Origin: Alkalihalobacillus sp. AL-G
Lineage (GTDB): Bacteria > Bacillota > Bacilli > Bacillales > Fictibacillaceae
Direction of reading: 5' to 3'
DNA length: 64,000 bases
NCBI RefSeq assembly: GCF_030643805.1
Contig: NZ_CP094656.1
Span: 3,968,001 to 4,032,000, forward strand
Shown one piece after another: positions 7,353 through 42,756 of this stretch. Made by a program: the position numbers and the translations under genes. Every line of letters starts with the position of its first letter. The stretch's first letter is position 1. The notes under the pieces were generated by a model. The model was not told the DNA's origin and ran no database searches. It worked only from the letters and a program-made list of their open reading frames with translations.

Positions 7353-7398
7353 TTGCATCTCCCCTTTTATAGCGTCTCTCTATCTCAGTTAATTAGCT

Positions 7399-22995: not shown

Positions 22996-23774
22996 CTCTT
23001 TCTTCTTTTATATGACTTGATATTTTTATAGTTCTTTCTCCCTTTATCACCAATTCCAAGATAAAACTCCCGGACATCCTGGTTCTCCAATAGTCTGTCA
23101 ACCGTACCATCCATCACAATCCGACCGTTTTCCATTATGTATCCGTAGTCAGCAATGGATAACGCCACTTTTGCATTTTGTTCCACTACTAAAATTGTTG
23201 TGCCTTCTTCTTCGTTAATACGCTTAATAATAGCAAAAATTTCTTTTACGAGCAGTGGTGCTAAGCCTAGAGAAGGTTCATCCAGCAGAAGTACTTTTGG
23301 TTTCGCCATCAGTCCCCTTCCGATTGCCAGCATCTGTTGTTCTCCTCCAGAAAGATAACCAGCTTGTCGGTTCTTAAGTATTTGCAGCTTCGGAAAATAT
23401 TGATATACCTTTTGAAGGTCAGCTTTGATGTTTCTTCGATCCTTTCTTGTATGGGCTCCAGCAAGCAGGTTTTCTTCTACTGTCAAATGTTCAAAAACAC
23501 GGCGGCCTTCCATGCACTGGAAGATTCCTTTTTTGACAATCGTTTCTGCATCAGTGACATCGATTCGCTCTCCATAAAGTTCAATGTACCCGTCAGTAAC
23601 TTCGCCATTTTCACTCTTTAACAGCCCTGAAATCGCCTTCAGAGTCGTGGTTTTTCCTGCGCCATTGCTTCCTAGCAATGCGACGATCTTCCCTTTTGGA
23701 ATGACCATCGACATTCCTTTTAAAACCAGGATGACCCGATCATACATGACTTCTACATTGTTTAAGGTCAGCAT
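22986..23774 (-). CDS. LivF-type ABC transporter ATPase
   Basis: Second ATPase of a branched-chain-amino-acid-type (HAAT) importer, 262 residues. It has Walker A GSNGAGKTT, Q-loop FQCMEGRRVF (the QxxEGRR form typical of LivF), signature LSGGEQQM, Walker B VLLLDEPSLGLAP, and the switch histidine replaced in the VVEQN segment as usual in LivF. After the normal end near FYLG it carries a basic tail of about 23 residues ending KSYKRRKRWL. I recall this tail as frequent in Liv ATPases that travel with acyl-CoA ligases. The ATG at 23774 has GGAGGG upstream. It overlaps the PaaK-like gene. Confidence 0.88.
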   Translation of the reverse strand: MLTLNNVEVMYDRVILVLKGMSMVIPKGKIVALLGSNGAGKTTTLKAISGLLKSENGEVTDGYIELYGERIDVTDAETIVKKGIFQCMEGRRVFEHLTVEENLLAGAHTRKDRRNIKADLQKVYQYFPKLQILKNRQAGYLSGGEQQMLAIGRGLMAKPKVLLLDEPSLGLAPLLVKEIFAIIKRINEEEGTTILVVEQNAKVALSIADYGYIMENGRIVMDGTVDRLLENQDVREFYLGIGDKGRKNYKNIKSYKRRKRWL

Positions 23775-23792
23775 ACGTTCTCCCTCCATTTC

Positions 23793-23913
23793 AAAGAAAA
23801 CTTGGCAAAGCCAAGCATTAGCGCCGGCTGAGCCTTAGCCCTAAAGGATGACCTAAAGGCCCTTGCCTTGTACTATAGAAAGTATTTTTATATTTTCTTA
23901 ACGTGTAAAAAAG
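23793..23913. repeat. Dispersed intergenic repeat, copy A
   Basis: About 120 nt, from AAAGAAAACT to TTCTTAACGTGTAAAAAAG. It matches copy B at 30032-30128 along its length, with indels in the middle (shared blocks GCCAAGC, GAGCC, GCCCTT, TAGAAAGTATT and TTCTTAACGTGTAAAAAAG). It contains a near-palindrome around AGAAAGTAT. Its right end is the T-run of the livK-like gene's terminator on the minus strand. Confidence 0.75.
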
Positions 23914-23938
23914 AGGGGTGTCAGCATAGCACCCCTTT
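23907..23938 (-). terminator. Rho-independent terminator of the substrate-binding protein gene
   Basis: On the minus strand, AAGGGGTG and CACCCCT pair around CTATGCTGA, followed by CTTTTTT. It lies just after the stop at 23944, so livF and the PaaK-like gene may depend on readthrough or a promoter inside repeat copy A. Confidence 0.8.
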
Positions 23939-23943
23939 ACTTA

Positions 23944-25116
23944 TCAGTAGCCGATATAATCTGTAAAGGCTTCAAACTTCCCGTTCTTCACCTCTGCTAA
24001 ACGAATCTGGTTTGTTCCAGCATGGCTTTCTGATGTAAAAGTAACTGGAGCAGCAAGTCCGCCTAGATCAAGTTCTTTTATCTTTTCTAAACCAGCCCGG
24101 ATTCCTTCACCAGTCGTAGGGTCGTCTGCAAGTTTGATTCCTTCAACCAAAATCTTTGCTGATACCCAGCCCTGCACGAATTTCTGATCTATATCTTCCA
24201 ACTTTTTATCTTTACTTTCAAGGTATTCTTCAATCTCCGCCATTCCTTCCAGATCCTCATAAGGGAAAGCATGTGTTACAACTCCGATAAACCCTTCTGA
24301 GGCATCTGGCGCAAGTGAAATCAAGCCTTCACCAGTGGCCCAGTTCAACCCGATGAATTGGGTGTCGATTCCCAATTTTTTTGCATCCTTCAAGATTGTC
24401 GCTGTAGCTCCCCATGTTTCCTGGATAATCGCATAGTCGGGGTCTTTCTTTTCCATATTCAATAATTGAGAGGTAGCATCAAGTGCTGTCAAATCGACGA
24501 CTTGTTCATCAACAACTTCAATTCCGATTTCCTTGGCAAACTCTTTTGCATCCTCTACCGGTGATTTTCCAAAGGCTGTATCATTGTAAATGAGAGCAAC
24601 TGTCGGTGAACCACCACTATGATTATCTTTTATCCATTGCAGTACAGAACGCGCCTGGTCAGAGTAGGAAGCTGCCGCTAAGAAGTTATATGGGCTTTCT
24701 TCCATATTTTTAAGATTCTCAGAATAAGAGGCTGAGATGAATGGAAGCTTATCTTTAGCAACCTGTTGCCGGAGGGCTTCCGTATCACCAGTACCCCAGC
24801 CTAAAATAGCGACGGCATTTTCCTTTGATTTATATTTTTGGTACAGCTTTTGTGCTTCGGGAATCTTGTAAGCATAATCCTCTCCAACTAATCTAAGCTT
24901 ATAGCCATTGACCTTTCCTTTAGAGTTGATGTATTCAAAATAAGCTTTCTCTCCTTCTGCATAAGGTGCCCCCACATCCCCAGTTCCTCCGGTAATGTCA
25001 AATAGTCCACCTATTGTAATCGTATCTCCCTCTCCACCAGATGTACCTTCTGAACATCCAGCTAATATTCCGAATACCAACAGAACCATCAACAGACTCG
25101 TCCACAATTTTTTCAT
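23944..25116 (-). CDS. Liv-type substrate-binding lipoprotein
   Basis: The extracytoplasmic receptor (390 aa) of the importer. A lipoprotein signal ends at LAGC with Cys21 as the lipid-bearing residue. The mature part has the type I periplasmic-binding fold seen in LivJ/K proteins: TITIGGLFDITGG, GKVNGYKLRLV, SYSENLKN, YNDTAFGKSPVEDAKEFA. The ligand may be a branched-chain amino acid or, given the two linked CoA ligases, an organic acid. GGGGGAG precedes the ATG. Fifteen bases upstream ends a 33-residue membrane ORF. Confidence 0.88.
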   Translation of the reverse strand: MKKLWTSLLMVLLVFGILAGCSEGTSGGEGDTITIGGLFDITGGTGDVGAPYAEGEKAYFEYINSKGKVNGYKLRLVGEDYAYKIPEAQKLYQKYKSKENAVAILGWGTGDTEALRQQVAKDKLPFISASYSENLKNMEESPYNFLAAASYSDQARSVLQWIKDNHSGGSPTVALIYNDTAFGKSPVEDAKEFAKEIGIEVVDEQVVDLTALDATSQLLNMEKKDPDYAIIQETWGATATILKDAKKLGIDTQFIGLNWATGEGLISLAPDASEGFIGVVTHAFPYEDLEGMAEIEEYLESKDKKLEDIDQKFVQGWVSAKILVEGIKLADDPTTGEGIRAGLEKIKELDLGGLAAPVTFTSESHAGTNQIRLAEVKNGKFEAFTDYIGY

Positions 25117-25131
25117 GCTTCTCCCCCTACG

Positions 25132-25233
25132 TCAGAATAGTTTATAAAAACGATAACCTATCAGGATGCTTATCGTAATTACTAATAACAAACCTACTAG
25201 AAATAGTATCAACGCTAATACGAAAATGGCCAT
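25132..25233 (-). CDS. Putative 33-aa single-helix membrane protein between livM and the binding-protein gene
   Basis: ATG at 25233, inside the last codons of the permease gene in another frame, to TGA at 25132. The product starts MAIFVLALILFLVGLLLV, is almost wholly hydrophobic for about 26 residues, and ends with a basic/aromatic GYRFYKLF tail, as expected of a one-helix membrane protein. It exactly fills the gap between the permease stop (25215) and the binding-protein ribosome site. The start lacks a clear Shine-Dalgarno, so it would rely on coupling to the permease. Confidence 0.5.
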   Translation of the reverse strand: MAIFVLALILFLVGLLLVITISILIGYRFYKLF

Positions 25234-26276
25234 AGTTTGAAGTAATCTTTGATGTTCTTCCATGTTTTCGCAAGTCCTTCCGGTTCATAGATGAGGAACA
25301 GGATGATGACTAATCCAAATACGACCTCCTTCAATCCGACTAGCACTGCAGCTATATCCGGGAAAAAGCCGCTTAACGTACTTACACCTGATCGCAGGAA
25401 CACCGGAAGTAAGGTAATGAAAACCGCACCATAAATCGAACCGAAAACACTGCCTAGACCACCTACAAGGATGATCGCCAAATATTCGATTGATACGGTG
25501 ATACTGTATAGTTCCGGACTGACAATCATCGTGTAATGTCCGAGTAACGCCCCTGCTACACCGATGAAAAAAGAACTAATCGCAAAGGCGAGTACCTTGT
25601 ACTTAAACAAATCGATTCCTATGACTTCCGCAGCAATGTCCCGGTCCCTGACAGCGATAAACGCACGGCCTACCCGAGAACGAAAAAGATTTAACGAAAA
25701 TATTGTAGTGAACACTAAAACTCCAAACATCAAATAGTAGAAGCTCATTTCACTATAGAAGGCAAATCCGCCGATTTCAGGCCTGCTTAATACGAGACCA
25801 GCCGTTCCACCAGTTAAACTATCCCACCTTGAAATGATAAAGAGGATGATCACTTGAGTTGCCAGTGTCGCAATCGCTAAATACAAACCCTTCAACCGGA
25901 GGGACGGTAGCCCGAACAAACCGCCGATGATGGCTGTAATTATACCCGCAACCGGTAATGCAATAAAAAAGCTCATGCCCAATTTTGTTGTCAATATAGC
26001 AGAAGTATAACCGCCAACCCCTAAGGATGCTCCGGTCCCAATCGAGATTTGCCCTGTGAAGCCTGTCAAAATATTCAACCCGATCGCACCTATTGCCGCA
26101 ATACCGCATAATGTCGCAAGCCCTACAATGTATTCAGAAGCAAAGAGAGGAAAGATGGCAAATAATGCAACGAATGCGATAACACGCATTCTTACCCGTA
26201 CGATACTCCAAAGGGCCATATCCTGCTTATAATTTACATGGAATTCTCCACATTCCATGACAAATGGATTCCGCAT
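25215..26276 (-). CDS. LivM-type ABC permease
   Basis: A 353-residue inner-membrane subunit of the importer with 8-10 predicted helices. LivM marks are GIAAIGAIGLNILTGFTGQISIG near the N-terminus, RLKGLYLAIATLA, and the EAA-like cytoplasmic loop RDRDIAAEVIGIDLFKYK. Then come EYLAIILVGGLGSVFGSIYGAVF and a C-terminus LVIILFLIYEPEGLA. The N-terminal roughly 25 residues before the first helix are unusually long, so a later start is possible. The gene lies 7 nt after livH. Confidence 0.88.
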   Translation of the reverse strand: MRNPFVMECGEFHVNYKQDMALWSIVRVRMRVIAFVALFAIFPLFASEYIVGLATLCGIAAIGAIGLNILTGFTGQISIGTGASLGVGGYTSAILTTKLGMSFFIALPVAGIITAIIGGLFGLPSLRLKGLYLAIATLATQVIILFIISRWDSLTGGTAGLVLSRPEIGGFAFYSEMSFYYLMFGVLVFTTIFSLNLFRSRVGRAFIAVRDRDIAAEVIGIDLFKYKVLAFAISSFFIGVAGALLGHYTMIVSPELYSITVSIEYLAIILVGGLGSVFGSIYGAVFITLLPVFLRSGVSTLSGFFPDIAAVLVGLKEVVFGLVIILFLIYEPEGLAKTWKNIKDYFKLWPFSY

Positions 26277-26283
26277 ATCCCTC

Positions 26284-27168
26284 TCACACCCTTTCTATTT
26301 CTTTTTTGCCATAAAGTCCATATGGTTTAAACATCAGAATAAAGATCAGAATTACAAATGGCATGACATCCTTTAACCCTCCACCTACCATCGGATCTAA
26401 ATAACCGCCAGTCAAACTCTCTATGAGACCGATGATCAACCCTCCGATGATAGCACCAGGAATGCTGTCTAATCCTCCGAGTATTGCAACAGGCAAAACC
26501 TTTAACCCAATTGCTGATAAGGAGGCGTTCACTCCATTGATATTTCCAAGCAGTATACCGCCGACTGCAGATACAATAGCGGCAATCGCCCAGGCAACTG
26601 CAAAAATCACTTTTACACTGATTCCCATCGACATTGCAGCCTGTTGATCATCAGCCGTTGCCCGCATCGCTATTCCAAGCTTTGAATATTTAAAGAAAAG
26701 TGTAAAAAGGACAAGCATTACTACCACAATAGCAAGCGACCAGAGATAAAGCGGAGTTACGATGACATTGCCGAATTCTATTGGTTGCTTAGAAAAGGTT
26801 TCAGGGAATACTCTCGTTTCATGCCCCCATATGATATGGACAAACCCTGCTAACATACTAGAAAGTCCAATGGTCGCCATAATCATCGAAATAATAGGTT
26901 CACCGATAAAATGCCGCAGTACGATACGCTCAATCACAAGGCCAAGTATTGCACTGAATATAAGAGCTAGGAATAATGAAGCAATGAACGGAATGTTGTA
27001 AGCGGTAATTAGCGTAAGGCACACATATGTACCGATCAACAGAAACTCCCCTTGTGCGAAGTTGATCGTATCACTAGCTTTATAGATTAGGACAAATCCT
27101 AAGGCTACCAGTGCATATACACTACCTACTACGATTCCTGTAACTACCATTTGCAGAAAAAAAGTCAT
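26284..27168 (-). CDS. LivH-type ABC permease
   Basis: A 294-residue permease pairing with LivM. It has the LivH start GIVVGSVYALVALGFVLIYKASDTINFAQGEF. It also has ERIVLRHFIGEPIISMIMATIGL, the cytoplasmic loop MRATADDQQAAMSMGI, and ILGGLDSIPGAIIGGLIIGLIE. Its ATG overlaps the stop of the upstream acyl-CoA ligase by one base (TAATG), so the ligase and permease are translated in tandem. Confidence 0.9.
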   Translation of the reverse strand: MTFFLQMVVTGIVVGSVYALVALGFVLIYKASDTINFAQGEFLLIGTYVCLTLITAYNIPFIASLFLALIFSAILGLVIERIVLRHFIGEPIISMIMATIGLSSMLAGFVHIIWGHETRVFPETFSKQPIEFGNVIVTPLYLWSLAIVVVMLVLFTLFFKYSKLGIAMRATADDQQAAMSMGISVKVIFAVAWAIAAIVSAVGGILLGNINGVNASLSAIGLKVLPVAILGGLDSIPGAIIGGLIIGLIESLTGGYLDPMVGGGLKDVMPFVILIFILMFKPYGLYGKKEIERV

Positions 27169-29084
27169 TAAGCTGCCCCCTCGCCTTCATCCATGAAAAT
27201 CACCTGGAGTGTCGTTTGAATGACCTGTTCATTTCCATCACGGTATTTGATCCTACCTTCTACATCTATTCGTTCATCAGAGGTATACATGCCTTCAATG
27301 AGTGTTTGATATTTTTCTCCGACAAATTGGCGGCGGACTTTCTTTGTACGCGTCAGTTCTTCATCATCTGCATCCAACTCCTTGTATAACAAAACAAATT
27401 TCTTAATCCGTGCTTTTACCGGCAAAGATTGATTGAGTTCCATCACTTGATTGTGAATCAACTCGAGAACCTCCAGCTTCGAAGATAAATCGGTATATGT
27501 TGTATAACCGATCTGTTTCCGTTCTGCCCAGCGCCCGACATTCTCCATATCGATGTTGATCATCGCCACAACATATGGGCGTTCCCTCCCGATCGCTACA
27601 GCTTCCTTGATAAACGAACTGAACTTTAGTTTATTCTCAATAAATTGAGGGGAAAACATTTCACCGGTATCTAATCGGATGACATCCTTTAAACGATCGA
27701 TGATATACAAATGCCCATCTTTGTCCAACCGTCCCGCATCTCCTGTATGTAACCAGCCATCCTCTAACGTTGCTTGTGTAGATTTCTGATTTTTAAAATA
27801 GCCTTTAAATACGCTTGAACTTTTGATGAGTATTTCACCCTTATTAGAAACTTTAACTTCTGTTCCAGGCAACGGTATTCCAACACTGTCAAATTTGATA
27901 TCCCCGTCACGATGTACGATGGATATCCCGGAAACCTCTGTCTGTCCATAAATACTCTTTATATTGACACCGATACTATGAAAAAATTGAAACACATCGG
28001 GTCCAAGCGGCGCACCGCCAGTATAGGCACGCCTCATCCGCAGCAGGCCGAGATGATCCCTTATCGCACTAAGCATGAGATAATCTGCTAACTTGTATAA
28101 CAGGCTTGTTCCGAAACTGACTTGCTTATTTTCAAAATTTGCATTTGCAACCTTTTCACCAATCGACTTGCACCATTCGTATGACTTTCTTTTGAACCAG
28201 CTGGAATCCTGAATTTTGACTTGAAACTTAGAGACCATATCTTCGTAGATTCTAGGAGGAGAGAACATTACATGAGGTCCGATTTCACGCATATTTTCTA
28301 AAACAGTGGAAGGTTCTTCAGGAAAATTTATCGTGATTCCATTATAGAGGCCGATTGCAATCGACATCATTTGCTCGCCAATCCATGCCAGAGGCAGGAA
28401 GGACAAATATTCATCCTTTTCAGATAAAGGATCGATCGATGATAGATTTTTTGCCATATCCATCAAATTCTGATAGGTCAACATCGTTCCTTTCGGATTA
28501 CCTGTTGTACCGGAAGTATATGATAGTATAGCAACATCGTCATAAGATCCTTTTTTTATCTCAGTCTTAAAATAGCTTGGAGCTTCTTTCTCATAGGCTA
28601 TTCCTAACTCCTGTACGTCTTTGAAGTATATTAGAGATTCATCCTTATAGTTCCTCATCCCCCGGGGGTCATAATAAATAATTGTTTTTACCTTTTTTAT
28701 TTCTTCTCTTATTTCTAAAAGTTTATCAACCTGTTCTTGATCCTCTACGACAACAATCGATGCATCGCAATTATTAAGGATATAACTTATTTCATTCGGA
28801 AGGGATTCCTGATAGATTCCAACTGAAATTCCACCAAGGCTTTGAACTGCCAACTCACTGAAAACCCATTCTGGTCGGTTATCGCCAATGATGGCAAGTG
28901 TTTCTTCTCTTTTCAATCCTAGCTTCGCCAACCCTAATCCAAACGTTTTCATTTGTTCAAAGTATTGTTCATATGTAAATTCATTCCATATTCCGTAGTC
29001 CTTCTCTCGTAACGCTACTTTGCTTCCTTCATTTTCAGCTCTTTCTAAAAGTGATTGAGGAAAAGTAATGTTCGATTTCGCCAT
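27168..29084 (-). CDS. Long-chain-type acyl-CoA synthetase (AMP-binding) in the Liv cluster
   Basis: A 638-residue adenylate-forming ligase that should activate a carboxylic acid to acyl-CoA. It has the P-loop-like AMP motif LSYTSGTTGNPKGTM, the adenine site SIYGQTEVSG, GWLHTGDAG with the ribose-binding Asp, and RLKDVIRLDTGE before the C-terminal lid. It resembles the FadD15/long-chain type (about 600-650 aa). The ATG at 29084 has GGGAGGG upstream; in-frame ATGs 13-14 codons earlier would overlap livG. A ligase wedged between the ATPase and permease genes suggests import coupled to CoA trapping. Confidence 0.88.
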   Translation of the reverse strand: MAKSNITFPQSLLERAENEGSKVALREKDYGIWNEFTYEQYFEQMKTFGLGLAKLGLKREETLAIIGDNRPEWVFSELAVQSLGGISVGIYQESLPNEISYILNNCDASIVVVEDQEQVDKLLEIREEIKKVKTIIYYDPRGMRNYKDESLIYFKDVQELGIAYEKEAPSYFKTEIKKGSYDDVAILSYTSGTTGNPKGTMLTYQNLMDMAKNLSSIDPLSEKDEYLSFLPLAWIGEQMMSIAIGLYNGITINFPEEPSTVLENMREIGPHVMFSPPRIYEDMVSKFQVKIQDSSWFKRKSYEWCKSIGEKVANANFENKQVSFGTSLLYKLADYLMLSAIRDHLGLLRMRRAYTGGAPLGPDVFQFFHSIGVNIKSIYGQTEVSGISIVHRDGDIKFDSVGIPLPGTEVKVSNKGEILIKSSSVFKGYFKNQKSTQATLEDGWLHTGDAGRLDKDGHLYIIDRLKDVIRLDTGEMFSPQFIENKLKFSSFIKEAVAIGRERPYVVAMINIDMENVGRWAERKQIGYTTYTDLSSKLEVLELIHNQVMELNQSLPVKARIKKFVLLYKELDADDEELTRTKKVRRQFVGEKYQTLIEGMYTSDERIDVEGRIKYRDGNEQVIQTTLQVIFMDEGEGAA

Positions 29085-29106
29085 TATATCGTTCCCTCCC
29101 AAAGGT

Positions 29107-29877
29107 TTAGACTGCATCTTCATCACCTAAATAAGCTTCTATCACCTTCTGATCATTTTGGATTTCCTGCGGTGTTCCGTATGCAATGAGTTTTCCGAAA
29201 TCAAGAACCGCAATGTGATCTGACAAGTCCATTACCACACCCATATCATGTTCTATCAGAATGATCGTCGTCTTGATTTCCTCATGTATATCGATAATAT
29301 AACGTGCCATGTCTTCTTTTTCTTCACTGTTCATACCGGCCATCGGCTCGTCCAAAAGTAAGATTTCAGGTTCTAAAGCAAGAGCCCTTCCTACTTCCAC
29401 CCGTTTTTGCAATCCATATGACAGTCTACCTACAGGAATATTTCGTATATGCTCAATCTCGAGAAAATCAATTACGTCCTCAACCTTCTTACGGTGTTCC
29501 ACTTCCTCCTTTTGAGCTTTTCCCCAGTATATTCCGCTCGAAAGAAGTCCTGCCTTCATACGTATGTGCCGACCAAGTAACAGATTGTCCAATACCGACA
29601 AGTGCGGAAACAACTCTATGTTCTGAAATGCTCTGGCAATCCCGAGACCCGCTCTTTTGTAGGGCTTTAAATTCGTAATCTCTTCCCCTTTAAAAGATAT
29701 AGAACCTTCTGCGGGGCGGTATAAACCGCTGATGCAGTTCAGCATACTTGTTTTACCGGCACCGTTGGGTCCAATTAAGGAAAAAATTTCACCCTCTGTT
29801 ACTTTATAAGAGACGTGATCCAGTGCTACGACTCCTCCAAATCGCATAGTGACATCCTTGATTTCTAAAATCCCCAA
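29107..29877 (-). CDS. LivG-type ABC transporter ATPase
   Basis: First gene of the importer cluster, 256 residues. It has Walker A GPNGAGKTS, signature LSYGLQKRVE (the LSxGxQ form of LivG), Walker B ILLLDEPMAGMN, and the switch IEHDMGVVM. The long insertion after the Q-loop (RHIRMKAGLLSSGIYWGKAQKEE) is typical of LivG. The start is TTG at 29877 with GGGAGG 7 nt upstream. It is preceded by 300 bases containing repeat copy B and the terminator of the next gene, so the cluster promoter is probably between 29880 and 30030. Confidence 0.9.
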   Translation of the reverse strand: MGILEIKDVTMRFGGVVALDHVSYKVTEGEIFSLIGPNGAGKTSMLNCISGLYRPAEGSISFKGEEITNLKPYKRAGLGIARAFQNIELFPHLSVLDNLLLGRHIRMKAGLLSSGIYWGKAQKEEVEHRKKVEDVIDFLEIEHIRNIPVGRLSYGLQKRVEVGRALALEPEILLLDEPMAGMNSEEKEDMARYIIDIHEEIKTTIILIEHDMGVVMDLSDHIAVLDFGKLIAYGTPQEIQNDQKVIEAYLGDEDAV

Positions 29878-31611: not shown

Positions 31612-34600
31612 TTATTGAGTTACAGGTTCTTCCTCTTCCTTCGCTTTCTTCTCACTTGGCTGCCCTGCAACAATAACCTGCAAGGTTCCTTCACTTTCGG
31701 CCTCGCCAGAAAAGTTTTTCGCGACTGCCCTCAAGAAGTAGCTTCCATTGTGAAGCTCCAACTCAAGCTCGAACGTACCATCTGGTTTCGTCCTTACCGA
31801 ACCTAGCTCTACTGCATCTTTTCCTCGTTCATTGAATACATGAACAGTTGTACCTGGTGTTGCTTTTCCAGTGACAACAACCGGTTCGCCTTTGAATTTA
31901 AGCTCTTCCGCATCCCAAGTCGGCTGCCCCGGCAATTGTTGTTCTGCATCCATCGCCCAATTCAGTGCATTGACAAACAAGTGTTTTCCTTCGGTAGTCC
32001 ATCCGTATTCTGGTCCGATGATGTTCGTCACTGCGAAGGAGGAAAGCAACAGGTGCATATGCTCCTTACTTCTGAATTCGTACGCGATTGATGATCCCTT
32101 CACCTCGTCCTCAACACTCAGGTTCGCAAGCGGGATTCCTGGATACCCTTTGAAGGTTGCGTAAGGACTTTTAGCGGTATGAATGTTGATCGCCTCTCCA
32201 TCCAAACCTAATCCTTCAAAAATCGGATGATCCTGAATCGGCTGTATATAAATCGCTCCTACATCATAACCATGCTGATCAAGCTGTGGAGAGCCTTCCA
32301 CGCTTTCAAGGAACTGGATCGACCCTTCACCAACACCCCATGTTCCGACAAAGACGACGCTCACATTTGCTTCATCACTCTTAGCAAGAAGCTGTTCAAC
32401 CTGATCCGCAGTTCCCTCGTTGGTATTGACAAGGACCGCTTCATACCTTCCAATGTCATCAACAACATCCCAGCCACGTGATTCTGCATATACCGCTTCG
32501 TCGTTGAGGAACGTTACTAGTGCCTCTTTAATATCGCCAAGTACAGCGACACGATACTTATTGATTGGCACATCCTTCGTAACATCATCATCCGTAATTG
32601 TGATCGTTTCTGTTGCCGGTAAATAGCCTTCAACCTCCAGCTTCAGCTCATAATTACCTGGAAGGAGGTGGTCAAATGCATAGTTCCCTGTTGCGTCCGT
32701 TGTCGTTTCTTCCACAAAGCCTTCCGGATCCTCCGGTGTCAGCGTCAGCTTCACACCTTCGATCGGATCACCTGAAACGGAATCGGCTACTGTACCTGAT
32801 AAGGTCACTCCTTCAATCGCATCTAACGTGAAGTTCAATTGTACGGCGTCGCCGAGCTGCTCGACGTCAGCCTCTTTCGCCTGTTCGACAAAGCCCCTAG
32901 CCTGTACTTTCACCTCATAGTGCCCGACTCCGACCCCGAGACGATAAGTTCCGTCTGCCGCCGTTACTGCCTCAACACCTTCTGAAGCAACCGACACTTT
33001 CGCGTTGGCAACCGGGTTTCCTTCGTTATCCGTAATTGTTCCGCGAATTTCCCCGAGACTTGCCGTGATCGCAAAGTCAATCGCATTCAAATAAATTTGT
33101 TTTGCATCCTCTGTCCATCTTTCCTCTGGTGAACCATATCCACCAACCTGGAATCCGGATAAAAGGACGTGAACGCTGTTTGCAGTTCGGTACTTATAGC
33201 CAATGCCTTGTCCGAGCACACCTTCTTCATTATGAGTCAATGATCCAATCGTTGTACCGCTGTAGCCTTCGTAAACCGCATACTGCTGGCTTGCATCTTC
33301 ACGTACTAAAATTTCGATCACATCATCGACTTCATAGCCTCTGAAAATCGGGTGCTCCTTCTCGACTTTTACATTGATTGCCCGATCGACGAACGTGGAG
33401 GACACATCCTCTGGATCTCCATAAATATCAGTGAGGTCTTCAATCGTTCCTCCCCCCCATTGGCTTGGGAAGATGATACTTACCTGCAGCTCATCCGCTT
33501 TTTCAACGAATGCCTTGAACTGATCGTCTGTCATACCCCAATATTTATCGTTAAAAATGATCAGCTGGTAATCGACCATCGCCTCCTGTAACGCTGCAAA
33601 ATCCTCTCGCTGATAAAAGTCGACGTCATAGCCATTCGCTTCAAGGAACGGTACGAGTCTTTCTTCATTCCTGTCATAAGCTATTACAGCAATTTTCTCT
33701 GAAACTTGCATCGCAAAGCTCAACGCTGCTTCTTCCCCAGCAACGACCTGAACATTCGCTTGCGTGCTTGGCGCATAGCCTGACGCTAAAACACGAACAT
33801 CGTACTCTTCTGCTGGTGCTGATACACGGAATCTTCCTTGTTCGTCGGTTTTAGCCTCTAATGGTGTACCGAGCAATGTAACGGAAGCGTCCGCAATCGG
33901 CTCTCCTGATTCCCCATCTTTTACAATACCGGATACGATACCAGCATTGTCAGCAGTCAATTCAAACGTTTGATTAAGACTTTCTCCGTTCTCAATCGTA
34001 ATGCTGAACGTTTTTTCCTCATGACCAAATGCAGTTATCGTAAGCTCATAGGTTCCAGCCTCTAATCCAGCGAAAAATGTACCATCTGCCTCGGTCTTGA
34101 TTGTTTTACCAGATTCAGAGATCGTCACATTTGCTTGAACTGAGACCCCTTGATCGTTGACGACCTCGCCATGTAATTCCCCTACAAGCGCTTCTTCATT
34201 ATCCAGCGCCCAGAGAATTGCATTGTTAAGGAGCTTTTCCCTGATTGGGTCGAACGATTGTTCCGGATTATACACATGGCTGATCGTCATGTTCGCTAGT
34301 AAAATTTCGACTGAATCGATCGTCCTGCCTTGGTAAGCGACCATACTGCCTTGTTCATTCGTTGCGTCGTTCGAAAACCCGACTAAGGTTTTACCAGAAT
34401 AACCATCAAAACCGTAGTAATACCCGAACCGAGAAGCAATTTCAAAGGACTCACCGACTTCAAGGCCAGCCGTAATCGGGTGTTCCTCAACAACTTTACC
34501 CATCGTCCCATCTTCAGAACCGGAGTATTCAACTGCTGGATCGTTCAGATAGTCATGCAAATAGCGGATCGATCCTCTCCCGCCATGTTGTCCCGTCCAA

Positions 34601-37600
34601 ATGACCGAAGTCCCGGACTCATCCAATGCCTTCAAAAAGGCTTTGAACTCAATTTTAGTCGGTTCCAGATCGTTATTATAATCAGCATTTGCAAATACGA
34701 GATCGACTTCCTTAAGTTTTTCGAGCTCTGTGAATGTCATATCGGTAACGACATACCCACGCCCCTCGAGGTAATCCCGGAGTGTTGCGTCAGATCCGGT
34801 GTTATCGACAATCACCCCGACTGTTGGAGATGGCTTCAATGAAATGTTCAATTCAACATTCTCGCCCTCGCCGACCTCAATCTCAATATCCTTACGTACG
34901 TATCCTTCTTTTTCGATTCGTAGCGTGTATGTGCCAGGCATCAACCGTTCAAGGTCATAATGCCCTTGCGTTGTCGTTACCGCTTCACGAGGGACATCAA
35001 GAACGTTAATCTGTGCTCCCTCAACAGCATTTCCGTCTCGTTCATTTTCAACGACTCCGGAAATTGATCCGACTGTTTGATCAACTTCCAATGTAATCGA
35101 GAGCGTTTCACTATTTTCAGAAACACTCACCGCTACTGTTTTCGTTTGATAGCCAAATGCACTCACTTCGACTTCATAATCACCATCTAAAATTGCGATG
35201 GAGTACGAGCCGTCCTCTGGATTCGTCTGATCCGAGAACTCTGCTCCCTTCACTTTGACATCCGCAAGTAATGGATTTCCGTCTGCATCTGTTACCGTGC
35301 CGCTGATCGTATTGAAGTTCGCCTTCGCTGCCCATAGCACGGTACGTACGAGCAAGTCTTTCGCTTCGTCTGTATACTCACTTGCATCATGCGAGAAGTA
35401 GAAGCCGTGACCGCCCATCAATACCTCCATACTACCTGAGGTTCTTGGCTTATAGGCGAATCCAGTGCCATGCGTTTCTGCATTGCCTTCATGTGTAATA
35501 TCAGCTAGCGGATAACCACTATAACCTTCAAAGTATCCGATATCACTTGCTGCAGGGATGAGCAGCTCGATGAAATCTCCCTCTTTTGCACCGTTAAAAA
35601 TCGGGTGCTCTTCGGTGACGACATAGCCTGCTGGCGCTAATGAGCCGTCTGCTGTGTCACGCGTTTCAGGGTCTCCACGGTATTCAGTGAGAATGTCGAT
35701 ACCTGAACCGCTCCATCCTGTTTCACCGAAAATGATGCTCGTCTGATGCTCGTCTGCCGCCTTCATCATCCGGTCAAAATCGGATTTGTTAAAATAGTAA
35801 CCCGAATCATTGAAGAAAACGACATCAAAATCACCGATTCGGTCCGCAATTTCGTCGTCAGATACTGCAGTGACAGGTACATCGATCGCATTAAAGATTG
35901 AAGCAAAATTACGCTCATCTGACCAGTAATCCTCTACTACCGCAATCGATGGCACTTGATTAAGAGAGACATTGATCTCACCTTCGACACGCGCGACATC
36001 AATCGTCTGTGAGTGAGTCACATACCCATCCTTTGAAATCGAAAGAGTATATTCGACCTCTTCAAGCTCTGTGAACTCATAACGACCATTTGTCGCAGTA
36101 ACGGTTTCAGCAACAACCTCCTCGCTCTGATTCGTTATCGTTACCATTGCACCTTCAAGTTCTTGACCTGTTTTTACATCAGTAACAATACCAGTGACTG
36201 TTCCACCATCAGATGCACCAATTGTCAGGTTCAATTCAACAGGCTCTCCGTGGGTGAAGGTGACTTCCACGGTTTCTGTCGCATAGCTGGATGCCCTGAT
36301 TTCCATCGTGTACGTTCCTTCATCATGAAACAGTTCATACGTTGATTGAGCACCAGAACCTTCACCGAGTAAGGTTTCCGTTTTAACGCCTGTTTCCAAT
36401 ATTTCGATCTGTGCTTCAACCGATTCACCTGTTGTGCTCATGATCGTACCTGAAACACTTCCGAATTTTGCATCCCTCAAGAAATCGATGCTATTGAATA
36501 AAATTTGCTGCTGGTCTGGCAGCCATCCTTGCATTGGAGAAATCCATGGTGCTGCTGCGTGCGTCGACAGAAGTAAGTGGGCACTATCGTTTGATACCGC
36601 TTTATATGCAACACCGGTACCGACAATTCCCATTTCTGTATTGCCGACCGATCCGAGATGGCGTCCCGAATATTGGTTGAACCAGGTGAGATCACCGGTA
36701 CTGTCGAATAACGTCATTCGGTCACCGACCTGATACCCTGCAAAAATCGGGTGCTCCACGTCAACCTGTAATCGAACAGCTCCCCCATCATATTGCTGGA
36801 ATAGCTCTTTCGGATCCTGTAAATATTCAGTCAAATGCTCAATTGTACCGTAGCTTCCTCCCCATTGATCCGCAAAAATCAAGTTGACACCATGCTCTTT
36901 AGCCGCATCGATCAGGGAAAGGACTTGTGCTGCGCTTGGCTGTTCTCCACCTGATCCATATGCGCCATTCAAGTAGATGACTTGATATCTGTCAATCGTT
37001 TCAATGATGCCCCAGCCACGTTCCTCTGCTGAATAACCATTCATTTGTAAAAGCTTCGTCACTTCCGAATTCCAGTCATTCAGCACCGCAATATCAATCG
37101 GATGCATTTCCACCGATAACGCAGTCTCTGACCCAGATTCTATCGTGACATCCATCACCTTTTTCACATAGCCGTCATAGGCTAAGGTCAGTTCATAGCT
37201 TCCTTCAAACACCTCTGACGCAGTAAATGCACCGGTTCCATTCGTCGTCCCTGCAACAGACGTATCTTCAAGGGTAATGTCCACCCCTTCAATCGTTTCC
37301 TGTGTTCGTTTGTCTGTTACTTCGACTTTCAATGAACCTGCTTGTGCATCCGTTAAAACATATGCTTTTGTCATTTTAAATCCAGAGATGAAGGATACGG
37401 TTTCTTCAACCTGTTTCAAGCCATACTTCGAAACTTTTAACGTGTATTCACCAGGTTTATGTTCTAACGTGAAGTTCCCTTCAGCATCAGACTCAACCTC
37501 GACACCTGTCTCAAGCACGGTTACCTTTCCTTCAACTGGATTACCATCGCTGTCCTTGATCGAGCCCTGTAAAATACCAGGAGATTGATAGCTTACCACT

Positions 37601-40600
37601 CCACTTAAATATGGAACGATCAGCTTTCCTGCAATAATCGGTAACCCCGATGTGCTGTATTCAGGTAGGGTGAACTCTTTTAACGAGTTCCCTGTATATA
37701 CATCAAGCGCATACAATGTTCCGTTCGTTCCAGTTACGAACAAAATTCCATTTGCGGTTACTGAACCGTTGTTCAAAATGGTTCCGACCGCACGATTGTT
37801 CCACTTCTCTTCCCCTGTTTCCTTATCAAATGCGCGAAGTACCGGCTGTGAAGCAGAACTCATGATGACAAGGTCCTCGTAGACAATTGGCGAGGCAGCC
37901 TGTGTGTCACCGATTCCTTCTGCTCTCCAAAGCTCTTCACCCGTATTCGCATCAAGGGCATATAGCGTTCCGCCGCCCGAATCGAAGTTTGTCCCAATTG
38001 CGTAGAGCTTACCATCCTTGTAAACTGGTCGTGCTGCAATTCCTTCATCGGTTAGCTGCTTCGACCAAACCTCTGAACCATCAGATAGATTCAAAGCTCG
38101 TAACGTCTGGTTATCATAGCTACCGATAAATAGCTTTCCATCCCCAGCACTTGGACCAAAAAAGGTTGGTGCTCCTAGAGGAACGCTCCATAACTCATCA
38201 CCGGTAGCGGCGTTTAATGCAGTCACCTTCGCATTTTCATCGAGCCCCGAGCTGACATATAATGTTCCATCCAGATAAAGTGGAGATTCATAGACTGTAT
38301 ACGTGCCTGTTTCATAGTTCCAAAGAATACTGCCGTTATCTAAATCAAGTGCGTAGATCCGTCCGTCTGCTCCACCAGAAAGATAAACGACACCATCCTC
38401 AATCGTCGGTGAAGATCGGTTCGTATCGCCAAGCCTGATACTCCATCTTTCTTTCCCGCTTTCGGAATCAAGGCTCACGATCCAACCCCGATCGGTCACT
38501 AGAACGACCGTTTGCTCTGCTGCTGCAGGGGTCGAGAACAAAATATCCCCTTTTGATCCGAGTTCATACTCCCAGCCGAGCTTCAACTCATTGAGATCGA
38601 TTGCTTCCGGTGAAACGGCATTGCGATGAATGTTATTATTCGCTGTCTTCCATTCCTGATTGGATTGAGACGGCTTCGATTGGACTTCGATTTGAAGCGT
38701 CTGATCTGCATCAACGTTGAGCCGTTGCTCAACCCCTTTAATCCCTTCTCCAGAAACCTGAAGCGTATACGTTCCTACAGGGACATGTTCAATGTTAAAA
38801 TTCCCGTTTTCATCAGTACGTGCAATCGGAATCGGTGTATTCTTGATCTGTACATAGCTGAACGCAACACCTTCCCCGGAATCTGAATGAACGACTTGTC
38901 CTTGAACCGCATAGGAGTCTGCCCGCTCAAGCTCCCATGTCACGTTCGTTGTTTCACCTCGAGTAATTTCAAGGTTCAACTCCATTATTTGATAGCCGAA
39001 GGATTCAAGAATAACCCCATGACTACCTTCACGGATTTTAAAATCAACGACACCATCTTCACCGATGTCGTATTCGGTGTTCTCATCAGCGATTTTCAGT
39101 GTCCCAGAAACCGGTTCTCCCTCTTGATTTGTCAGGGTACCTTTTAATTCACCAGAAAATGCGGCTTCGGTCACGGCCTGATAAATATTGACGATTCCTC
39201 TTCCGTATAAATCATTCGGAACACTTCCCATGTGTGGTTCCACACGCGTAGTGCTTTTCAGGAGGTTTTTGACTTCTTCAACGGTCAAATCTGGATTTGC
39301 CTGTTCAAGGAGTGCGATCGCCCCGGTAACATGCGGTGTCGCCATTGACGTACCACTGATCGTCACATATTTCCCTTCACCCAAATCGACAGGCCATGCG
39401 GAATAGATTTGGTGTCCAGGTGCCGATACATCCGGCTTGAACAACCGGATCTGGTTCCCGTTCTCATCCTCCCAGAATACTGGACCACGACTTGAAAAAG
39501 ATGCGACCTGATCGTAGATGTCTGTTGCTCCAACTGCAAACGATTGTGGAAAGCTTCCCGGCGCACCGATCGTTTGTGACCCTGGTCCATCATTTCCTGC
39601 AGCGAAGTTAGGAAAAATCCCTGCTGCTACCCATGCTTCAACATCCTCATAAAATTCGGTGCTGTACGTGTTCGAATTTCCCCACGAGTTGTTGACGACA
39701 TCTGGTGCTTTTGATGGATCGCCGCCTGGAGCCATGAACCATTGGAACGCAGCGTGGATTGCAGAAGTCGTCGTCGAGCCTCCGTCTGTAAAAATTTTCG
39801 CCGCAATCCATTCGGCTTCAGGTGCGACGCCAATCGGATCTCCTTCTCCACCACCGACTGCAGTGCCGGCAACATGTGTTCCATGACCATGACCATCCTG
39901 TGGTGTCTCATACCCTTGCCCGGACAGGTCAATCCATGAATACTGGTGGTTCCCGTCATTTCCCCGGTAATTATGTCGAAGTGCCTCGTGCGTCATATCG
40001 ACACCACTATCCATAATACCGACGACAACACCATCACCCTTAAGACCATATTGACCCCACACCTTCGGAGCACGGATCTTTTCTAAACCCCATTGTGGCA
40101 GCTTCGGTGGATTTTCATCAACCGTAACCTCTGGAAGCTGCAATGTACGATCCAAGGATATCCGCTCAATGTCATCCCGTTTCTTCAGTTGTTCCAGAGC
40201 ATCTTTACTGACCGTTGCAGACAGCCCGTTAATGATCCAAAACGACTGTTTCTTTTTCGCTTTTCCTTGCTGTTCAAGTGCTTTTAATGCTTGTTTGAGT
40301 CCTTTTTGAGAGGTTTGTGTCTTTTCTTCGAGGTGGCTTTTGATAATCTTGATTTTCTCGCTGCGTTTAGACTTCGCTTTAACCTGAGGATAAATTTCTT
40401 TAACGGTAGGACGTTCCTTCATTCGGATAATGACGTCGACTTTCTCCTGTTTTTCAAGGGCTTTTGTGACATCATCCCCGACCTTTTGTGGGTTCTTAGA
40501 GGATTCTACTTTCGACTTTCCAGATAGAGGCGGCGGCTCCCAGCCTAATCCTTGCATCAAGCTCGCAAGGCCACCTTCCTCTTTACTCGTTTCGTTCTCT

Positions 40601-40800
40601 GTCGTTTCTTCGTTGTTTTGCGATCTGTTCAGATATTCCTTTTCACGTTCTTTCTCAAGTTCTTTTTCGTCTGCCCCGATACTTAAATTTCCTTCTGATG
40701 TCGCAAGCGCACTATGTGGTGCGATCAGTGAAAATACCAACAAGAGACTAAATAACAATGCATAGTATCTCCGTACGGACTTTCGTTTTGTCCATGACAA
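31612..40800 (-). CDS. Giant secreted subtilase (S8) with PQQ-type propeller and five tandem GATase1-like/carboxypeptidase-regulatory modules
   Basis: A 3,062-residue exported protease. The TTG at 40800 has GGGGGTG 8 nt upstream, and the signal peptide (ALLFSLLLVFSLIAPHSALA) then sits at the N-terminus; a GTG at 40845 is less likely. After a charged linker and an I9-like propeptide comes a bacillopeptidase-F-like catalytic domain (about 235-547) with Asp264 (GIMDSG), His306 (GHGTHVAG), Asn403 (AAGN) and Ser485 (SGTSMATPH). Carboxypeptidase-regulatory-like beta domains follow (about 548-710). A PQQ-type propeller with YALD-x-TGxxLW repeats spans about 715-1075. Five modules of about 378 residues start near 1236, 1617, 1992, 2369 and 2749. 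Each has a Rossmann/GATase1-like domain with an EHPIFxGY motif; paired regulatory-like domains precede the first and lie between successive ones. The C-terminus is a short Ig-like domain; no LPxTG or SLH anchor. Regulation is not visible. Confidence 0.85.
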   Translation of the reverse strand: MSWTKRKSVRRYYALLFSLLLVFSLIAPHSALATSEGNLSIGADEKELEKEREKEYLNRSQNNEETTENETSKEEGGLASLMQGLGWEPPPLSGKSKVESSKNPQKVGDDVTKALEKQEKVDVIIRMKERPTVKEIYPQVKAKSKRSEKIKIIKSHLEEKTQTSQKGLKQALKALEQQGKAKKKQSFWIINGLSATVSKDALEQLKKRDDIERISLDRTLQLPEVTVDENPPKLPQWGLEKIRAPKVWGQYGLKGDGVVVGIMDSGVDMTHEALRHNYRGNDGNHQYSWIDLSGQGYETPQDGHGHGTHVAGTAVGGGEGDPIGVAPEAEWIAAKIFTDGGSTTTSAIHAAFQWFMAPGGDPSKAPDVVNNSWGNSNTYSTEFYEDVEAWVAAGIFPNFAAGNDGPGSQTIGAPGSFPQSFAVGATDIYDQVASFSSRGPVFWEDENGNQIRLFKPDVSAPGHQIYSAWPVDLGEGKYVTISGTSMATPHVTGAIALLEQANPDLTVEEVKNLLKSTTRVEPHMGSVPNDLYGRGIVNIYQAVTEAAFSGELKGTLTNQEGEPVSGTLKIADENTEYDIGEDGVVDFKIREGSHGVILESFGYQIMELNLEITRGETTNVTWELERADSYAVQGQVVHSDSGEGVAFSYVQIKNTPIPIARTDENGNFNIEHVPVGTYTLQVSGEGIKGVEQRLNVDADQTLQIEVQSKPSQSNQEWKTANNNIHRNAVSPEAIDLNELKLGWEYELGSKGDILFSTPAAAEQTVVLVTDRGWIVSLDSESGKERWSIRLGDTNRSSPTIEDGVVYLSGGADGRIYALDLDNGSILWNYETGTYTVYESPLYLDGTLYVSSGLDENAKVTALNAATGDELWSVPLGAPTFFGPSAGDGKLFIGSYDNQTLRALNLSDGSEVWSKQLTDEGIAARPVYKDGKLYAIGTNFDSGGGTLYALDANTGEELWRAEGIGDTQAASPIVYEDLVIMSSASQPVLRAFDKETGEEKWNNRAVGTILNNGSVTANGILFVTGTNGTLYALDVYTGNSLKEFTLPEYSTSGLPIIAGKLIVPYLSGVVSYQSPGILQGSIKDSDGNPVEGKVTVLETGVEVESDAEGNFTLEHKPGEYTLKVSKYGLKQVEETVSFISGFKMTKAYVLTDAQAGSLKVEVTDKRTQETIEGVDITLEDTSVAGTTNGTGAFTASEVFEGSYELTLAYDGYVKKVMDVTIESGSETALSVEMHPIDIAVLNDWNSEVTKLLQMNGYSAEERGWGIIETIDRYQVIYLNGAYGSGGEQPSAAQVLSLIDAAKEHGVNLIFADQWGGSYGTIEHLTEYLQDPKELFQQYDGGAVRLQVDVEHPIFAGYQVGDRMTLFDSTGDLTWFNQYSGRHLGSVGNTEMGIVGTGVAYKAVSNDSAHLLLSTHAAAPWISPMQGWLPDQQQILFNSIDFLRDAKFGSVSGTIMSTTGESVEAQIEILETGVKTETLLGEGSGAQSTYELFHDEGTYTMEIRASSYATETVEVTFTHGEPVELNLTIGASDGGTVTGIVTDVKTGQELEGAMVTITNQSEEVVAETVTATNGRYEFTELEEVEYTLSISKDGYVTHSQTIDVARVEGEINVSLNQVPSIAVVEDYWSDERNFASIFNAIDVPVTAVSDDEIADRIGDFDVVFFNDSGYYFNKSDFDRMMKAADEHQTSIIFGETGWSGSGIDILTEYRGDPETRDTADGSLAPAGYVVTEEHPIFNGAKEGDFIELLIPAASDIGYFEGYSGYPLADITHEGNAETHGTGFAYKPRTSGSMEVLMGGHGFYFSHDASEYTDEAKDLLVRTVLWAAKANFNTISGTVTDADGNPLLADVKVKGAEFSDQTNPEDGSYSIAILDGDYEVEVSAFGYQTKTVAVSVSENSETLSITLEVDQTVGSISGVVENERDGNAVEGAQINVLDVPREAVTTTQGHYDLERLMPGTYTLRIEKEGYVRKDIEIEVGEGENVELNISLKPSPTVGVIVDNTGSDATLRDYLEGRGYVVTDMTFTELEKLKEVDLVFANADYNNDLEPTKIEFKAFLKALDESGTSVIWTGQHGGRGSIRYLHDYLNDPAVEYSGSEDGTMGKVVEEHPITAGLEVGESFEIASRFGYYYGFDGYSGKTLVGFSNDATNEQGSMVAYQGRTIDSVEILLANMTISHVYNPEQSFDPIREKLLNNAILWALDNEEALVGELHGEVVNDQGVSVQANVTISESGKTIKTEADGTFFAGLEAGTYELTITAFGHEEKTFSITIENGESLNQTFELTADNAGIVSGIVKDGESGEPIADASVTLLGTPLEAKTDEQGRFRVSAPAEEYDVRVLASGYAPSTQANVQVVAGEEAALSFAMQVSEKIAVIAYDRNEERLVPFLEANGYDVDFYQREDFAALQEAMVDYQLIIFNDKYWGMTDDQFKAFVEKADELQVSIIFPSQWGGGTIEDLTDIYGDPEDVSSTFVDRAINVKVEKEHPIFRGYEVDDVIEILVREDASQQYAVYEGYSGTTIGSLTHNEEGVLGQGIGYKYRTANSVHVLLSGFQVGGYGSPEERWTEDAKQIYLNAIDFAITASLGEIRGTITDNEGNPVANAKVSVASEGVEAVTAADGTYRLGVGVGHYEVKVQARGFVEQAKEADVEQLGDAVQLNFTLDAIEGVTLSGTVADSVSGDPIEGVKLTLTPEDPEGFVEETTTDATGNYAFDHLLPGNYELKLEVEGYLPATETITITDDDVTKDVPINKYRVAVLGDIKEALVTFLNDEAVYAESRGWDVVDDIGRYEAVLVNTNEGTADQVEQLLAKSDEANVSVVFVGTWGVGEGSIQFLESVEGSPQLDQHGYDVGAIYIQPIQDHPIFEGLGLDGEAINIHTAKSPYATFKGYPGIPLANLSVEDEVKGSSIAYEFRSKEHMHLLLSSFAVTNIIGPEYGWTTEGKHLFVNALNWAMDAEQQLPGQPTWDAEELKFKGEPVVVTGKATPGTTVHVFNERGKDAVELGSVRTKPDGTFELELELHNGSYFLRAVAKNFSGEAESEGTLQVIVAGQPSEKKAKEEEEPVTQ

Positions 40801-41649: not shown

Positions 41650-42756
41650 TTAATATGCCTGGACCGCTCCAATCAGCTGTTCAATCTGCTTGTGGATCTC
41701 ACTCTTAATCTCATCGACCTTATTGAAATCCATCGCTTCGATATAATACTGCTCCAATTCATCATGCAGCTCTTTAGCTCTTGCTAGACAGGCGATCGCA
41801 TCCTTCATTTTACCTGAATAGCGAGATGTTATATCTTCAAGTTCAACCTCATATTTATCATCTGTTCCAGGTGTGATCGTCCGTTTGTACATATCAACAA
41901 TCTCATCATTTTCACGGTCCGGAAAATATTCATGCGGTGCTGTGCTGTCGAAAATCGCAAACCCTAGCTCTCGTACAATCACCATATCAAGACTGTTCGG
42001 ATCAAATCCGCAATGATAGATCTCCACATCAAACCCTTTATCCTCTGCCGCAGCAGCGATTTTCTTCAACATCGTCGATTTTCCAGATCCAGGACGTCCT
42101 TTAATGAAATAGCGTTTATAAACATCCTCGGTCAAGTTCTGGATAAAATCGACCGCTCCTTCAGGTGTCGCTGCACCAAGATACCGATGCCGTACGTCGG
42201 CTGTTTTTTTCAAACCTTTACCGGCAAAAAAGTGCTCTAACAACTCTTCGGTCAACTGATCTGCTTTATTAAAATCCATGTTTTCGATGTAGATCTTCTC
42301 CCACTCATCATGGACAGCCAATGCATCTGCAAAATTCGCATAAGCAGATTGAAAGGATGTGTCAATTTTGTCGTTCAGCTCGAGGATCCGTTCTTTATAA
42401 GGAGCTAGCAAGTCGGAGTTCCAGGCAACGCCGAGATTCACATATTCCTCAACGACACCTGGAGCTTTCGGTTCAATGACGTGTGGTGCTGTGCCATCCA
42501 CAACACCGACCTTTAAAGCAGGGAGAATGAACCCATCGATCGACTGATTGTCTGAAGCGCAATGCAAGTATTCGATATCAAAGCCATTTTCATTCCATGC
42601 GTCACCGATTTCTTTCATGAGCGTTGATTTTCCAGTCCCGGGGCCACCTTTTAAAATAAATAACCGGTCCAAGCCAGCAAGACTAGACTCGTATAAGCTA
42701 TAAAACCCTTTCGCTGTATTGCCCCCAGCATAATAGTTTTTGATTTTTCCAACCAA
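41650..42756 (-). CDS. Tandem double P-loop ATPase of unknown role (PRK06851-like)
   Basis: A 368-residue cytoplasmic protein made of two homologous halves. Each half has a Walker A motif (GGPGTGKST at 37-45; GRPGSGKST at 220-228). Each then has a matching HC-x-D-x2-S-x-D block ending in TAPH (around 55-92 and 248-275), and a helical EKIYIENMDFNK / EQYYIEAMDFNK segment. This repeated layout is known in an uncharacterised ATPase family of Bacillus and clostridia. The conserved His-Cys and TAPH blocks suggest a nucleotide-dependent function with a metal or redox aspect, which I cannot name. The start is TTG at 42756, following GGAGGGGAG. Confidence 0.75.
   Translation of the reverse strand: MVGKIKNYYAGGNTAKGFYSLYESSLAGLDRLFILKGGPGTGKSTLMKEIGDAWNENGFDIEYLHCASDNQSIDGFILPALKVGVVDGTAPHVIEPKAPGVVEEYVNLGVAWNSDLLAPYKERILELNDKIDTSFQSAYANFADALAVHDEWEKIYIENMDFNKADQLTEELLEHFFAGKGLKKTADVRHRYLGAATPEGAVDFIQNLTEDVYKRYFIKGRPGSGKSTMLKKIAAAAEDKGFDVEIYHCGFDPNSLDMVIVRELGFAIFDSTAPHEYFPDRENDEIVDMYKRTITPGTDDKYEVELEDITSRYSGKMKDAIACLARAKELHDELEQYYIEAMDFNKVDEIKSEIHKQIEQLIGAVQAY

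Follow-up and report, generated by a model that had tools for sequence, protein, structure and literature searches.

A giant subtilase that appears to join a bacillopeptidase F-type chassis to an undescribed arm of ThuA-like modules, five in every carrier found

Why would a subtilisin-like (S8) protease carry a long arm in which one type of module is repeated five times, and what could such modules do? The question is raised by a gene in a 64,000-nucleotide stretch of the Alkalihalobacillus sp. AL-G genome (contig NZ_CP094656.1, positions 3,968,001 to 4,032,000), referred to here as the window and numbered from its first letter. The open reading frame (ORF) occupies 31612..40800 on the minus strand, as do all of its features given below, from a TTG start at 40800 with GGGGGTG just 5′ of it to a stop at 31612, and encodes 3062 amino acids. 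A signal-peptide-like N-terminus (residues 1-34; 40699..40800), read by eye, agrees with an earlier note on this DNA, and the protein is probably secreted. It is followed by an Inhibitor_I9 propeptide (residues 124-222; 40135..40431; Pfam E 7.3e-6) and a Peptidase_S8 domain (residues 255-519; 39244..40038; Pfam E 1.1e-58), the latter scoring 199.3 bits against a cut-off of 21.8. The intact S8 triad and the PQQ-type propeller of the earlier note are both found. The triad residues D264, H306, and S485 are assigned by motif, and the PQQ/BamB-type beta-propeller, whose limits at about residues 713-1072 (37585..38664) are approximate, is matched at E 1.4e-45 (PQQ_2/BamB-type) and 6.5e-50. Asp-His-Ser triad motifs are present in all 31 proteins of this kind that were dissected (the giants), lying in the N-terminal ORF piece of the one whose gene is split (G313). 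Between protease and propeller lies a carboxypeptidase-regulatory-like domain (residues 632-714; 38659..38907; Pfam E 1.2e-16), with a second candidate, for which there was no Pfam match, at about residues 546-631.

Beyond the propeller, each of five units consists of two transthyretin-like (carboxypeptidase-regulatory-like) domains and one module of 209-216 residues (~213). The domain pairs were placed by Pfam and a five-unit alignment, that of unit 1 also by a structural model, and they lie ahead of each module as had been noted; the whole protein contains 12 CarboxypepD_reg stretches. The pair at 37102..37581 precedes module M1 (residues 1234-1446; 36463..37101), which was modelled and has a predicted ThuA-like fold. 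Next come the pair at 35953..36462 and M2 (residues 1617-1829; 35314..35952), and then the pair at 34825..35313 and M3 (residues 1993-2205; 34186..34824). The pair at 33700..34185 leads to M4 (residues 2368-2583; 33052..33699), the second modelled module, again with a predicted ThuA-like fold, and the pair at 32563..33051 leads to M5 (residues 2747-2955; 31936..32562). The folds of M2, M3, and M5 are assigned by homology to M4. Five modules had been counted before, and the count stands; their starts (1234, 1617, 1993, 2368, and 2747) are 375-383 residues apart, slightly more than the 375-381 first given. The protein ends in an Ig-like domain (Big_6; Pfam E 4.7e-7) and a tail without CWB2 (31615..31935).

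Structural models bear on what the modules are. The AlphaFold2 model of M4, made from an alignment of ten rows from the window and locus L015, is confident, with a pLDDT of 91.5 and a pTM of 0.91, as is that of a unit (two linker domains plus M1), with a pLDDT of 90.2 and a pTM of 0.73. When VIA-align was run on Foldseek's best-ranked chains (1000 aligned for M4 and 998 for the M1 unit), the closest of these chains was in both cases the ThuA-like 1t0b, with Z 18.1 and rmsd 3.0 over 197 residues for M4 and Z 17.8 and rmsd 3.0 over 191 residues for M1. The runner-up chains trail it by 2.8 Z units for M1 and by 1.1 for M4, so that the lead of M4 over other GATase1-like proteins is small. In profile-profile comparison, the modules align with ThuA over 172 columns, HPI on HPI, with a probability of 91.3% and a pairwise E of 9.5e-7, the ThuA profile being built from 11 proteins (12 loci listed, L113 excluded), of which ten are closely related among themselves. 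Because 1t0b tops both models and the profiles agree, the term GATase1-like, which the earlier note had used and proposed to check by structure prediction, is right as a description of the fold, with ThuA-like as its nearest kind, and M1 and M4 are predicted to have this fold. Further matches of M4 are the N-terminal domain of IFT52 (5fmr_A, Z 15.8), Agd3 (6nwz, Z 15.4), and a levan SGBP (8aa2_G, Z 14.8) that also matches the M1 unit (Z 14.0). General class I glutamine amidotransferase folds are matched as well (2a9v, 7d97, and 1i1q). The linker domains resemble the transthyretin-like domains of carboxypeptidases (2nsm, Z 14.3, rmsd 1.1 over 77 residues; 5aq0, Z 14.2, rmsd 1.2 over 80).

The search of a viral structure library with M4 gave two matches at E ≤0.001, both to long uncultured-phage proteins. 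The two best are annotated as peptidoglycan-binding-like and as an autotransporter beta-domain, so ThuA-like domains may also be carried by phage surface or lysis proteins. A phage or plasmid origin of the modules was considered and rejected, as tblastn with M4 only found no match in either the phage or the plasmid collection at E ≤0.1.

At the level of sequence, the modules belong to no convincing Pfam family. This holds for the five of the window and for 55 modules from eleven genomes, whose best matches were NARF (E 0.0019, 3 of 55), UPF0180 (E 0.005, 6 of 55), and ThuA (E 0.012, 1 of 55). That one match to ThuA (PF06283) is far below the curated cut-off of 33.4 bits, and the family is absent from the other 54 modules at E ≤1. 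A profile search of PDB sequences with the modules returned nothing convincing (best E 0.017, an arginine repressor), and the 24 NCBIfam models listed for the whole window protein each fall under their own cut-off. The HMM search that had been proposed thus reveals no named, well-characterised repeat family: ThuA is the nearest, yet the modules miss it in Pfam. Of the two motifs reported before, EHPIF is present by eye in M1, M2, and M4 but reads EHPIT in M3 and DHPIF in M5, and Y-x-GY-x-G holds strictly only in M4, with F replacing the first Y in M2, M3, and M5 and FNQYSG in M1.

Could the array be a product of recent tandem duplication or of faulty assembly? The comparison of the modules that the earlier note had called for gives pairwise identities of 26-35% within the window, far from near-identical copies, and no exact direct repeat of at least 16 bases was found within the giant gene. 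On these two grounds the recent-duplication alternative is out, and the duplication of the modules is judged from their divergence to be old. The same five modules in 40 of 40 genomes tell against it too, leaving this explanation a negligible probability.

These 40 distinct carrier genomes were gathered from overlapping samples. Strong module matches occurred within the family in 3 of 34 genomes, at order level in 27 of 397 sampled genomes, at class level in 5 of 398, and at phylum level in 3 of 398; in two single genera, they occurred in 15 of 21 and 9 of 16 genomes. Weak matches were removed before counting (G068 and G109 in the order sample, G068 and G485 in the class sample, and G972 and G1144 in the phylum sample). 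Up to seven candidates were scored per genome in the order, class, and phylum samples, and all candidates in the two genus samples, with the same result: every genome with strong matches has exactly five modules. In G001, a one-module query gave four, and a purpose-built HMM gave five. A match in the Hyphomicrobiaceae (L016) was dismissed as chance, since a long ORF on the opposite strand there reads by eye like ComEC.

Carriers span several families and extend beyond the order to G659 (another order of the same class) and G929 (another class of the same phylum). In the 31 dissected proteins, all five modules sit in the giant gene, and in G313 they sit in its C-terminal piece. When the 145 modules of 29 proteins are placed in one tree, M1, M2, M3, M4, and M5 form one clade each (99-100/99-100), and the branching order among the five clades is poorly supported. 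The search for orthologues with the same layout therefore returned the same five modules in the same order, by the count of 40 carriers and the position clades of 29 proteins. Copy number is often variable in tandem extracellular domains. Number and order alike in every carrier genome suggest that each domain has its own job, and five constant, position-specific clades across several families, a second order, and a second class make this a testable case for module-specific tasks. Two giants are split: in G313 (L062), overlapping ORFs in different frames of 1181 and 1961 amino acids (about 5237-8780, the second from 8593) part between propeller and modules, and in G1157, from the genus search, the pieces have 1880 and 1176 amino acids.

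Amidotransferase chemistry, the other half of the GATase1-like claim, did not survive. Model position 81 is located at the elbow where GATases hold their nucleophile, and none of 155 modules from 31 giants has a Cys at model positions 76-84; glutamine amidotransferase activity was rejected on this ground. There are no cysteines at all in 145 modules of 29 proteins. Two more distant proteins bring the set to 155 modules of 31 proteins, with four cysteines, all in G929. The G929 protein (L115) is also the sole giant of 31 with Cys past residue 60, eight in number (the N-terminal piece of G313 being uncounted). All 31 copies of M1 and all 31 of M5 have Trp at position 81, which is F, Y, or W in 28 of 31 copies of M4, 16 of 31 of M2, and 1 of 31 of M3. 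When position 82 is counted as well, an aromatic residue is found in 31 copies of M1, 31 of M5, 28 of M4, 26 of M2, and 1 of M3, out of 31 each.

The loops at the C-terminal edge of the sheet, with limits set by hand from the M4 model, differ in the same family of modules. Against 215 shifted profiles, their conservation is reached by 11 for M1 and 5 for M5, by 38 for M3, and by 126 for M4 and 148 for M2; it is high in M1 and M5 and weakly raised in M3, and M2 and M4 show no increase. The mean over all five modules is 0.628 for these loops, little above the 0.598 of the opposite edge. Against eleven relatives, median conservation is 49-56% in the modules, 38-47% in the linkers, and 77% in the S8 domain. 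Since the edge loops of M1 and M5 are conserved beyond shifted profiles, these two modules look like working sites, and M2, M3, and M4 may be spacers or may bind in other ways. The data do not establish one sugar site shared by all five modules, because the edges of M2 and M4 are not raised, that of M3 is weak, and the aromatic residue of M3 is present in one protein of 31.

What kind of protease carries this arm? A new class had been thought possible, and the wholly new class is not borne out. A tree of 38 S8 domains was made from 15 giants, 12 of the 13 other S8 domains of the window genome (L125 omitted), and 11 neighbours or matches from the plasmid collection; its row G659_nb1531 is not of the bacillopeptidase F (Bpr) type. 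The 15 giants form one clade (99/98), not inside the Bpr clade but as a separate sister of the bacillopeptidase F types, with the joint clade at 100/99. The S8 gene that lies between ftsZ and spoIIGA in a B. velezensis record serves as the reference for Bpr, this interval being the position of bpr in B. subtilis. The neighbours of the window giant are an NTPase and a methyltransferase rather than ftsZ and spoIIGA as for Bpr, a weak criterion given that the neighbours of the window genome's own Bpr-type ORF are by eye unlike ftsZ and spoIIGA too. That genome has 14 S8 protease domains, including the giant and this Bpr-type ORF of 1453 amino acids, and because it holds both, the giant is a separate paralogue, not a lengthened Bpr. 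From tree and domain content, the giant reads as a cousin of bacillopeptidase F on a bacillopeptidase F-type chassis. An excerpted survey of Bacillaceae subtilases treats bacillopeptidase F as a group of its own, with accessory domains excluded from the analysis (PMC9549277).

The giants fall into two lineages by their tails. CWB2 repeats bind secondary wall polymers. Three of them stand at the C-terminus of 7 of the 31 giants, proteins of 3503-3619 amino acids (Pfam E 2.2e-58 to 3.3e-64). They are absent from the tail of the window protein by Pfam, and no known anchor was seen in the tails of the 24 without CWB2 (the window, G226, and G033 by Pfam, the rest by eye). In a whole-protein tree of 30 giants, from which the split G313 was excluded, a fully supported branch (SH-aLRT 100, quick method) separates the seven from the rest. 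Genus g14 holds giants with and without CWB2, and both lineages in one genus point to transfer or to old paralogy with loss. G001 groups with family f47, away from its own family. Lineages with and without wall-binding repeats offer a natural comparison.

Flanks of 0.5 to 10 kb a side (one side short in G146 and G034) hold a Bpr-type S8 gene on the same strand for all seven CWB2 giants (L058, L059, L060, L064, L065, L114, and L115) and for none of the other 24; in G033, which lacks CWB2, the flanking S8 gene is of another type. Both Bpr-type neighbours checked by Pfam also carry CWB2, so that giant and neighbour may work as a pair. Across 29 loci, no neighbour is conserved beyond a genus or close lineage, except for broad ABC-transporter and S8 clusters. 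In the window, nothing about the neighbours, viewed by eye and four of them by Pfam, suggests a sugar pathway. Downstream of the giant on the same strand, 21817-29877 contains ORFs resembling a branched-chain amino-acid-type ABC transporter and two acyl-CoA-ligase-like genes (by eye), with one AMP-binding Pfam match. Upstream, a 368-amino-acid ORF at 41650-42756 has two P-loop ATPase halves and is common, among the 29 loci, to G033 only.

The explanation that we favour, at a probability of about 0.5, is that the giant is a protease of the Bpr type, secreted or placed on the surface, and that its ThuA-like modules dock without catalysis, glycans being their most likely ligands. The chassis consists of the I9 propeptide, the S8 domain, and transthyretin-like and Ig-like domains, and carries the BamB-type propeller and five units of two transthyretin-like domains and a module each. 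The protease would be exported, its arm stretching away from the catalytic domain, and the five old, individually conserved modules, having no GATase nucleophile, would serve as docking sites. Their target would most likely be glycans, which could belong to a glycosylated substrate or to the wall or matrix of the producing cell, with M1 and M5 the best candidates. In lineages without CWB2, the window included, the arm may itself do the holding, and the propeller, at a guess, may add docking surface. The glycan part of this proposal is drawn from two published ThuA-like domains that bind glycans. As described in excerpts of the respective papers, the domain of Agd3 is without the GATase triad, has conserved aromatic residues at the C-terminal sheet edge, and binds galactosaminogalactan, with a 12.7-fold increase in Kd in W344A (PMC7229062); in the levan SGBP, two Ig-like domains are followed by a ThuA-like domain that binds levan through W297 and W359 (PMC7618045). 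Presentation of a ligand or substrate, as the earlier note proposed for the arm, is possible, and these published domains would make glycans the likely ligand. Conservation supports a glycan role for M1 and M5 and does not do so for M2 and M4.

The same fold makes protein contacts in IFT52 and is found in enzymes elsewhere, so that other roles have to be weighed. The modules might be protein-protein docking or spacing domains in the manner of the IFT52 GIFT domain, which would fix the protease within an assembly or keep it at a given distance with no sugar involved. The closeness of the IFT52 N-terminal domain to M4 fits this, constant number and order would suit an assembly or a ruler too, and M2 and M4 show no increase in sheet-edge conservation; the invariant edge Trp and conserved edge loops of M1 and M5 argue against it, as does the lack, in 29 loci, of a candidate partner gene conserved beyond single genera or close lineages, and it is possible but unlikely. 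For relatives of this fold the excerpted literature leaves both roles in view, sugar binding being proposed for GIFT domains (PMC7226087) and sugar binding or protein contact being suggested for PelA (PMC12022489).

Catalysis on sugars beside the protease would agree with the ThuA fold, the common HPI motif, and a His that 30 of 31 copies of M1 and 29 of 31 of M2 have at model position 183, adjacent to where the PGHE His of ThuA is located. Against it, about ten His are invariant or nearly so among ThuA relatives, and most of these have no counterpart in the modules (alignments by eye), and the elbow is free of Cys throughout, so that an enzymatic role is very unlikely. Binding of small molecules is within the reach of GATase1-like folds, and with each of the five modules conserved separately, the arm could read several soluble ligands and regulate the protease allosterically; the modules are, however, at least 700 residues from the S8 domain and behind the propeller, and the drop in pTM from single module to unit hints at hinge freedom, which makes this a decidedly poor prospect. 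Docking on glycans could also take a bolder form, in which the arm is a glycan reader whose five module specificities, fixed before the families split, read one feature after another along a single composite glycan or glycoprotein and so set the protease at a defined place on it. This is distinctly speculative and rather improbable. If true, a protease would be guided by a five-site sugar code, and ThuA-like domains would be an unrecognised family of bacterial carbohydrate-binding modules.

For the favoured docking of a Bpr-type protease on glycans, the nearest known systems are informative on both halves of the protein. On the side of the arm, ThuA and ThuA-like proteins (PF06283, 1t0b) share with the modules the fold of M4 and M1, the HPI motif, and a collinear profile match. 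In contrast to ThuA, the His-rich positions are mostly gone from the modules (by eye), and the modules form a tandem array in a giant protein, whereas ThuA ORFs mostly have about 240-290 amino acids. Class I glutamine amidotransferases share the general fold but have the elbow Cys that all modules lack. Agd3 and the levan SGBP have non-catalytic ThuA-like domains with sheet-edge aromatics, a candidate parallel to the modules, and the latter, like the units of the giant, also places two beta-sandwich (Ig-like) domains ahead of the ThuA-like domain; structure alignments with the modules have 10-13% identity. A domain type published as a glycan binder in two unrelated systems is hereby extended to a giant bacterial protease, and with the modules comes a domain family that no Pfam entry matches convincingly.

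On the side of the chassis, bacillopeptidase F (Bpr, MEROPS S08.017) shares with the giants the I9 and S8 domains, CarboxypepD_reg, and an Ig-like or Glucodextran_B-type tail, Glucodextran_B being seen among giants in the CWB2 lineage. B. velezensis Bpr has 1431 amino acids with I9, S8, an InhA-like MAM part, two CarboxypepD_reg domains, and Glucodextran_B, and no propeller among its Pfam matches. In residues 520-1072 of the giant, conversely, the MAM model is absent among 16 Pfam families at E ≤0.1. No description of the giant's architecture was found in titles and abstracts of the open-licence literature, and while its chassis is that of a known protease, its ThuA-like arm, with five modules in all carriers found, appears to be undescribed; a propeller and five units stand where Bpr has its MAM part.
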